Assembly: GCA_018062785.1 (NCBI GenBank)
Contig: JAGORO010000009.1
Location: 1-38,266 of the forward strand
DNA: 38,266 nucleotides
Origin: Candidatus Saccharimonadota bacterium
GTDB lineage: Bacteria; Patescibacteriota; Saccharimonadia; Saccharimonadales; UBA4665
Direction: 5' to 3'
In this document: positions 37,374 to 38,266 of the stretch, one piece after another
Layout: each line of letters starts with the position of its first letter
How positions within the stretch are numbered: the first letter of the stretch is position 1
Program-made: the position numbers and the translations under genes
Notes under the pieces: model-generated
Told to the model about the DNA's origin: nothing
Seen by the model: the letters and a program-made list of their open reading frames with translations, nothing else
The model's database searches: none

Positions 37374-37901
37374 CTAATGAGCAAGTAGCTGCTCTTGTAG
37401 CGATTGTGCTTTGCGGACAACCGATTTGGAATGATGCTTAGTCTGAATAGCTAGTATGGTGCGTACTTCCTCTTGTGAAACATCGCCAAGCTGGGCGAAA
37501 TAGACCAGTGTAGCCATAGCCTCTGCGGCAACAATCCAGTCAACATCTACCGTGCCAGCAACAGTAGTCAGCCAGTGCAAAGCTCTTTTTTTCTGTTCAT
37601 CTTGCAAAGTCACTTGTCGGTATATCTGCGCCAGATGCCACTGTATCGATGGCTGACTTATGGAGTGTAGATCATGTTGCATAGTATCTATGTTTGGGGT
37701 AATCCAGTCAGGGTGTAAACGACAAATTTTTTCATACGCATCTGCCGCACGCATTCGGGCCCAAGCATCATCATGAAAAAAGCAATCATACAGCTCGGAA
37801 ATACGTGCTGGTTCCGCCAGAACAGCGCCGACCACCTCATCCACCCTGCCTAGTGAGTTTCTCTTGCCTGCAAGTAATACATCCGTGAACAACTCCTTCA
37901 T
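37374..37901 (-). CDS. HEAT-like helical repeat protein
   Basis: A 175-aa all-helical soluble protein. Successive antiparallel helices (RISELYDCFFHDDAWARMRAADAYEKICRLHPDW, SQPSIQWHLAQIYRQVTLQDEQKKRALHWLTTVA, WIVAAEAMATLVYFAQLGDVSQEEVRTILAIQTKH, SKSVVRKAQSL) look like HEAT or DNA-alkylation-repair-type repeats, which bind proteins or nucleic acid. ATG 37901 is preferred over a TTG at 37919. It has no Shine-Dalgarno; a TAAGCT box 8 nt upstream could be a -10. The role is unknown. Confidence 0.75.
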   Translation of the reverse strand: MKELFTDVLLAGKRNSLGRVDEVVGAVLAEPARISELYDCFFHDDAWARMRAADAYEKICRLHPDWITPNIDTMQHDLHSISQPSIQWHLAQIYRQVTLQDEQKKRALHWLTTVAGTVDVDWIVAAEAMATLVYFAQLGDVSQEEVRTILAIQTKHHSKSVVRKAQSLQEQLLAH

Positions 37902-37952
37902 ACTAACTAAGCTTAGCAAATAACCGTACCTCTAGCCTATCACCCTTGTTTT

Positions 37953-37961
37953 TGCTACAAT
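37953..37961 (+). promoter_or_regulatory. Extended -10 promoter of the right-edge RNA
   Basis: TGCTACAAT, the same 9-mer found before smpB and NDH-2, but here pointing into a segment with no start codon or coding frame. The predicted transcription start is near 37968. Confidence 0.6.
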
Positions 37962-37967
37962 GAATGC

Positions 37968-38160
37968 GCTGTTTATAGAAGGTAAAGCACCGGCCGTTTG
38001 AGCATCGAAGATGCGAGTTAGTCAAACTATGGTCCCAGCATCGGGGTGAGAATGGCCAGTGGCCGTTTGCAAGGGAGTCCACTCTTGAAAACTTGTTTTC
38101 ATAGACGTGGCGACGGGCTCGCCGAAGGTGAGTCGAAATCCCTGCAAGAGATTCGAGCCC
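37968..38160 (+). ncRNA. Putative structured RNA with tRNA-Gln-like segments
   Basis: No reading frame, but dense pairing downstream of a strong -10 box. Helices: GTTTGA/TCAAAC (37996-38001 with 38022-38027) enclosing GCATC-GAA-GATGC; CAC-c-GGCC with GGCC-a-GTG; a long hairpin closed by CCAC/GTGG with a GAAAA-CUUG-UUUUC tip (38080-38110); GGCGA/TCGCC (38109-38123); and GCAaGGGA with TCCCTGC (38069-38145). GGCCGTTTG occurs twice (37992, 38061), giving two partners for CAAAC. Two stretches, 37981-37993 and 38030-38046, match the D-arm and the anticodon-to-variable part of the downstream tRNA-Gln closely. It does not carry the conserved cores of RNase P, tmRNA or SRP RNA. The ends are estimates. 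Confidence 0.55.
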
Positions 38161-38168
38161 TCGTACGT

Positions 38169-38174
38169 TATAAT
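38169..38174 (+). promoter_or_regulatory. -10 box of tRNA-Gln
   Basis: Consensus TATAAT, 17 bp before the tRNA 5' end, with no clear -35. tRNA-Gln can thus be transcribed separately from the upstream RNA. Confidence 0.5.
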
Positions 38175-38191
38175 TTACTAAGCCCAAATAT

Positions 38192-38266
38192 TGGGACGTC
38201 GCCAAGTGGTAAGGCACCGGGTTTTGGTCCCGGCATTCGGGGGTTCGAATCCCTCCGTCCCAGCCA
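38192..38266 (+). tRNA. tRNA-Gln(TTG)
   Basis: A complete cloverleaf: acceptor TGGGACG/CGTCCCA, D-arm with AGTGGTAAGGC, anticodon stem CCGGG/CCCGG around TTTTGGT (anticodon TTG) and T-arm GGGTTCGAATCCC. The 3' CCA is encoded and coincides with the window edge. It decodes CAA/CAG. Confidence 0.97.

Follow-up and report, generated by a model that had tools for sequence, protein, structure and literature searches.

What is the segment just upstream of the tRNA-Gln gene at the end of a contig from a Candidatus Saccharimonadota bacterium, and how did it come to carry pieces of that tRNA? A preliminary description of the window (the whole stretch of DNA analysed, 38,266 nucleotides) saw there an uncharacterised structured RNA, perhaps a regulatory RNA derived from the tRNA, a decayed tRNA with an intron-like insert or a new class of RNA. 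Comparison with related genomes leads us to a different reading, in which a small mobile element of Saccharibacteria, itself non-autonomous, would have lodged one of its copies at 38047-38134, in the T-loop of a tRNA-Gln copy. We give this explanation, taken in full, about an even chance of being right. The segment would then be a single member of a family of mobile hairpin cassettes that occur in many copies and insert into copies of tRNA genes.

The tRNA-Gln locus

All features described here lie on the forward strand, except where noted. The intact tRNA-Gln (TTG) occupies 38192-38266 (ARAGORN; Rfam RF00005, 62.7 bits) and is preceded by a TATAAT box at 38169-38174. Upstream lie two blocks of the same tRNA, just as had been reported. 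The first, 37981-37993 (GGTAAAGCACCGG), runs from the 3' part of the D-arm to the anticodon stem and is identical to 38208-38220 at 12 of 13 positions. The second, 38030-38046, contains the 3' strand of the anticodon stem, the variable loop and the 5' strand of the T-stem, and matches 38225-38242. The 36-nt hairpin said to separate the two blocks is also present (37994-38029), at the anticodon arm of the copy.

The tRNA pieces are thus real, but they turn out to be the flank of a larger element that the preliminary description missed. Directly after the second block comes a cassette of about 88 nt (38047-38134), recognised by a covariance model and by covariation, which forms three hairpins and which we call the core. 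Its position corresponds to the T-loop in the partial, decayed copy of the adjoining tRNA-Gln. A sense fragment of the 3' part of the T-arm follows (GAAATCCC, 38135-38142), at a position where other units have it too, and then comes an antisense T-arm segment on the reverse strand (38146-38163), which agrees by eye at 14 of 18 positions with the reverse complement of the T-arm of tRNA-Gln. The suggestion of a decayed tRNA with an intron-like insert was therefore close: there is a partial tRNA-Gln copy and there is an insert, although the important one is the core in the T-loop and not the 36-nt hairpin.

Other parts of the preliminary description fared less well. It had a promoter identical to two protein-gene promoters driving the segment. 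A -10-like box, TACAAT, does stand upstream of the partial copy (37956-37961), and a consensus scan finds no full sigma-70 site there. The claimed identity lies within chance, since the -10 region TTTGCTACAAT has one further exact and one one-mismatch occurrence in the window against a chance expectation of 0.87; the longer promoter string TTGTTTTTGCTACAATGA is unique in the window. The segment was also said to be full of helices. Folded as a single sequence, the whole segment does no better than dinucleotide shuffles (z -0.63), and it is comparison with relatives that brings the helices out. An Rfam scan, proposed as a check, assigns the segment to no known family: at the gathering cut-off the window yields tRNAs only, and at E<=10 the region 37850-38266 yields the tRNA and chance matches, with no group I or group II intron or ribozyme family among them.

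The CCA of tRNA-Gln is the exact end of the contig (G000:C7, position 38266), and another contig of the same genome, C4, likewise ends beside cores. From these two cases we conclude that core-bearing units probably break assemblies, and such units will confuse tRNA annotation as well as assembly in Saccharibacteria genomes.

The three-hairpin core and its distribution

When the segment is searched against relatives at the nucleotide level, only query positions of about 102-206 recur, in many copies per genome. Thirty of these copies, aligned by sequence (alignment A1), gave a structure of three hairpins. P_A (38050-38068; helix 1) has the loop AGT, conserved as NGT; P_B (38074-38114; helices 2 and 3) consists of an outer stem with a bulged pyrimidine and an apical hairpin with a CTTG loop; and P_C (38116-38134; helix 4) has a GAA loop and a conserved G.T pair. 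A covariance model built from these 30 sequences (R1) finds the window at 38039-38141 with 107 bits and E=2.5e-24, the window sequence being itself one of the 30.

The three-hairpin structure is strongly supported by compensatory changes, which is the outcome that the preliminary description had named as favourable. In A1, 92% of the cells are paired and 23 of 31 pairs show compensatory change. In a second alignment of 124 sequences fitted to the model (A2), whose counts lean towards the structure, the corresponding values are 94% and 29 of 31, with 796 double-change cells where shuffled controls give 215 and slid controls 34-102. Each hairpin contributes in A2: P_A is paired in 97.6% of cells with double changes at 8/8 pairs, P_B in about 94% with double changes at 15/15, and P_C in 91% with double changes at 6/8. 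Across many families, the loops and linkers of the core keep their sequence. One locus (L036:141-245) holds a further core-like copy, which has diverged, differs in its P_C (GGGCAGGCGGAGCTTGCC) and occupies a D-loop site; L142 has another of this kind.

R1 finds cores in 94 of the 295 genomes of the window's order and in 67 of its 143 genera, with up to 36 copies per genome, 17 in one closed genome and 7 in the genome of the window. In a sample of 380 genomes from the whole phylum, the 10 genomes with cores all belong to this order, and none was found outside it. A sequence-pattern search returned 49 named contigs, and the label on nearly all of them is Candidatus Saccharibacteria, Saccharimonadia or Patescibacteria; one contig with a core (L179, CAKZMS010000173.1) is labelled Opitutaceae and is probably a mis-binned piece of Saccharibacteria. 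Viral contigs, phages and plasmids gave no core match, and an attachment site of a phage or plasmid was rejected on this result. The searchable literature, which included few subscription papers and no preprints, yielded no description of tRNA-linked structured RNAs or repeats in Saccharibacteria or the CPR. The core thus represents a large family of repeats, apparently undescribed so far, that resides at the tRNA loci of bacteria that are ultra-small and streamlined.

Unit anatomy at tRNA genes

Cores are strongly associated with tRNA genes. In 116 (80%) of the 145 units with enough flanking sequence, an intact same-strand tRNA lies no more than 250 nt away: upstream only in 69, downstream only in 42 and on both sides in 5. 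We refer to units with the intact tRNA downstream, as in the window, as type A, and to those with it upstream as type B. Nearly every tRNA isotype has neighbouring cores.

The association extends to the exact position of the core, which splits a partial copy of the same tRNA that it adjoins and is accompanied by an antisense T-arm segment. When the 16 nt of flank (8 nt from each side) are joined and compared with the adjoining tRNA, 98 of 131 units match at 14 or more positions, against 12 of 131 when the tRNA is drawn at random from another isotype; the resemblance between T-arms makes this control a stringent one. The insertion points follow the consensus RG^N(N)C, mostly as the T-loop sequence GGT^TCGA, with AGAG^CA^CCTG, AGAG^CG^C, TAGG^AA^CTAG and ACGG^GT^TCTG as further sites. 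A congener of the window's genome (L013, genome G006) has a complete core in a tRNA-Gln copy at the anticodon-arm site that corresponds to the place of the 36-nt hairpin.

The two types differ in the half of the tRNA that they repeat. A type-A unit consists, in order, of a promoter, the 5' part of the tRNA, the core, a short 3' piece of the T-arm, the antisense T-arm, a second promoter and the intact tRNA. In type B, the intact tRNA and its terminator come first, followed by an antisense 3' part, the variable loop and T-stem, the core, a 3' part with CCA, and a terminator. The first promoter of type A is represented by a -10-like box upstream of the partial copy in 20 of 29 cases (9.2 expected), and a box corresponding to the TATAAT box of the window is present in 34 of 45 type-A spacers (14.1 expected). 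Type B has the T-run of a terminator in 61/69 units, with -10 boxes in 7/69 against 12 expected. The antisense piece fits its own tRNA more closely than it fits others in 38 of 45 type-A units (p=1e-7) and in 65 of 69 type-B units. By eye, the intact gene is accompanied in each unit by one part of the tRNA, 5' or 3', and none of the displayed units has both halves complete around a core; a tRNA intron was rejected on this basis.

A number of individual units add detail. In L128 (492-595), the core is inserted in a partial tRNA-Phe copy of antisense orientation, and the intact tRNA-Phe lies on the other strand. L142, L127 and L140 are pseudo-tRNAs (Gln, Leu) in which two different loops of one copy hold cores. 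In type-B antisense arms (for example L063, L166 and L068), the bases opposite the last T-stem pairs, the complement of the GG before TTC, are often mutated and the rest is kept; in the type-A arms viewed, these bases are kept. The string ATCCTCCGTCGCAGA recurs near type-B units (flanks of L048 and L068) and may form a hairpin in L048. ARAGORN found no tRNA-Ser, tRNA-Leu or tmRNA remnant that could be the core itself. Inspection revealed neither the terminal motifs of integron attC sites nor, in type-A units, the long guide-like 3' tRNA flank of a TnpB-type guide RNA.

Mobility, rival explanations and known relatives

Does the core move? Two cores of the window's genome that lie away from tRNAs (L138 and L139) are identical over their full length, and their contexts have no comparable similarity beyond the immediate flank. 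An orthologous tRNA-Leu(taa) locus with the same downstream gene, followed through genus g116 and its relatives, is filled in two genomes (G140 and G221), holds a decayed remnant in a third (G250) and gives no match to the core in the remaining genomes of the set; the comparison is between species-level lineages, and the exact empty-site junctions are approximate. In genome G111, near-identical inner cores lie within the P_C region of other cores, and removing the inner core on paper restores the outer helix. Units of both types also occur in tandem (174-190 bp). The nearest neighbour of a core comes from the same genome in 34 of 116 cases, against 7.9 ± 3.0 after permutation, and shares its tRNA isotype only weakly more often than expected (15/89 against 8.0). 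Identical cores in two contexts, presence and absence at one locus, nesting, tandems and similarity within genomes all support mobility, while one filled tRNA-Gly locus common to two genera (G140 and G168, 85% identity over 1.6 kb) counts against it. On these sequence comparisons, the conserved cassette is likely to be a mobile element. Essential tRNA genes would then be hit repeatedly by a cassette that is too short to code for a protein.

What form of the core is under selection? Outside three fixed G.T positions, the variable stems have G.U and A.C in a ratio of 31:19, against 99:15 in the tRNA stems of the same loci under the same treatment. Type-B cores are promoterless and lie behind terminators, yet they are as well paired as type-A cores (95% and 93%), and this together with the rarity of G.U favours folded single-stranded DNA. 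Two facts suit RNA: the G.T pair of P_C is kept in 108 of 121 sequences, and on the + strand the full P_C folds better as RNA than as DNA. On balance, we lean slightly towards folded single-stranded DNA, rather than RNA, as the selected form.

The same evidence bears on the proposal of a functional non-coding RNA family, in which the core would be the structured domain of a small RNA that is transcribed together with tRNA genes or next to them and that acts, through its tRNA fragments and antisense T-arm, on the folding, processing or charging of the tRNA. The RNA-like features of P_C, the promoter-like box of type-A units and the fit of the antisense arm to its own tRNA all agree with this proposal, as does the finding that some pseudo-tRNA anticodon stem-loops (for example in L079, L080 and L126) have changed in sequence and kept their pairing. 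However, most units belong to type B, with no promoter and equal pairing; the variable stems are poor in G.U; the positions vary between congeneric species; and cores also occur inside other cores and away from any tRNA. We consider such an RNA family unlikely. The narrower idea of a tRNA-derived regulatory RNA gained no positive support, given that the family behaves like a mobile element, that most copies lack a promoter of their own and that the pairing fits folded DNA at least as well.

If the core is a mobile element too small for a protein, which enzyme might move it? The best candidate found is a RAYT-like Y1 HUH gene, a sub-threshold relative of the NCBIfam family REP_Tyr_transpos. It is present in 52 genomes, 42 of which have the core, whereas cores occur in 52 of the remaining 243 (odds ratio 15.4, p=9e-16, a statistic that ignores phylogeny). 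As negative controls for this link, IS1595 elements coincide with the core in 20 of 67 genomes and classic IS200 elements in about one in ten. Three considerations argue against the RAYT-like enzyme as agent. Half of the carriers, 52 genomes including some with at least 17 copies (G070, G042), lack the RAYT clade, so that it cannot be necessary. The RAYT genes are bordered by palindromes other than the core, and about 1.5 kb around 20 of these genes contained no strong core and one weak match (L275, 28.5 bits). Finally, we know of no HUH transposition whose product is a half-tRNA duplication with an antisense arm. The enzyme is therefore a lead and not a result, and we doubt that it is the agent; its co-occurrence with the core nevertheless offers a testable enzyme-substrate pair. 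The genes themselves form a distinct Saccharibacteria family of about 205 aa (L270-L297; for example L290, at G000:C14:43500-45400, with a gene at 44128-44736). Most of those examined are bordered by a palindrome that is specific to the gene, nearly perfect and of the AAGG..CCTT type, unlike the core. Reverse transcriptase, present in 3/23 core-rich and 6/23 core-poor genomes, is not supported as the agent, and the IS110/IS1111 DEDD recombinase (PF01548), present in 4 of 247 genomes, none with the core, was rejected.

Perhaps there is no dedicated enzyme, and gene conversion, or template switching driven by microhomology, carries cores from one T-arm to another, the string GGTTCGAATCC being common to most tRNAs and the sense-antisense-sense units being traces of switching at hairpins. 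The occurrence of that order at the T-arm in type A as well as in type B, the T-loop preference of the insertion sites, the many carriers without a RAYT gene and the lack of a link to reverse transcriptase or IS110 are all as this explanation would have them. Against it stand L138, L139 and the nested copies, which lie in non-tRNA contexts with little flanking homology, and the conservation of core loops and linkers, which switching alone does not explain; we regard it as improbable. A very small self-splicing or reverse-splicing intron-like RNA that invades tRNA loops would account for the precise position, the sense flanks on both sides and an antisense segment that could align them, but it is highly improbable in view of its length of about 88 nt, the lack of a match to Rfam group I, group II or ribozyme families, the reverse transcriptase counts, the core in an antisense tRNA-Phe copy and the want of any displayed unit with both tRNA halves complete.

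How could a mobile cassette produce units of this kind? In the mechanism that we propose, the three-hairpin cassette would insert in a loop, mostly the T-loop, of a tRNA copy. It would move as a folded single strand, more likely lagging-strand DNA than RNA, through an enzyme acting in trans, possibly the RAYT-like HUH transposase. Insertions would survive where half of the tRNA gene was duplicated in sense-antisense-sense order, the half being the 5' one in type A, to which the window belongs, and the 3' one with its terminator in type B. This duplication would leave a complete tRNA beside the disrupted copy, which could then decay. We tentatively raise the possibility, which we judge somewhat short of probable, that the family represents a mobile element of a new class. 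A cassette of three hairpins, with no protein of its own, would land in tRNA loops; at each insertion, a half-tRNA duplication with an antisense arm would rebuild the tRNA; and an HUH or other enzyme would move the cassette as a folded single strand. The hundreds of natural insertions would be a source for the rules of hairpin-mediated insertion and of tRNA-gene rebuilding.

The closest known kinds are the REP/RAYT and IS200/IS605-type hairpin elements. Like the REP and BIME elements of RAYT (TnpA-REP) REPtrons, the core is multi-copy, extragenic, hairpin-forming and presumably non-autonomous, and its presence correlates with a Y1 HUH gene, as that of REP elements is reported to correlate with tnpA-REP (PMC8266576). 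However, a REP element is a palindrome of 20-50 nt preceded by a GTAG-type tetranucleotide (PMC8266576), whereas the core has about 88 nt in three hairpins, the first preceded by GTGA(G). REPtron elements border their cognate tnpA-REP gene and the core does not border the RAYT genes here; the core also targets tRNA copies and comes with half-tRNA duplications. Because it lacks the GTAG tag, the bordering of RAYT genes and the length that define REP elements, we do not file it among them. Hairpins, strand specificity and a short insertion motif are features that it has in common with IS200/IS605 elements and their non-autonomous derivatives (general knowledge; PMC8266576). Unlike these, which have a body between a defined left end and a defined right end, the cassette is itself the set of hairpins, and it has no link to a classic IS200-type transposase.

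Two more distant likenesses concern the tRNA. Integrative elements that target tRNA genes are flanked by an intact tRNA at one end and a partial one at the other, with crossovers in the anticodon loop and T-loop, and the units resemble such tyrosine-integrase att sites in both respects. They differ in that the whole unit is only about 180 nt, with a covarying core and no integrase, and in that a single core family is found at most tRNA isotypes. The tRNA-derived SINEs of eukaryotes join a tRNA-like 5' part to a conserved core, and by analogy so do our units; unlike SINEs, they have no link to reverse transcriptase, and each copy of the core carries the tRNA of its own location.
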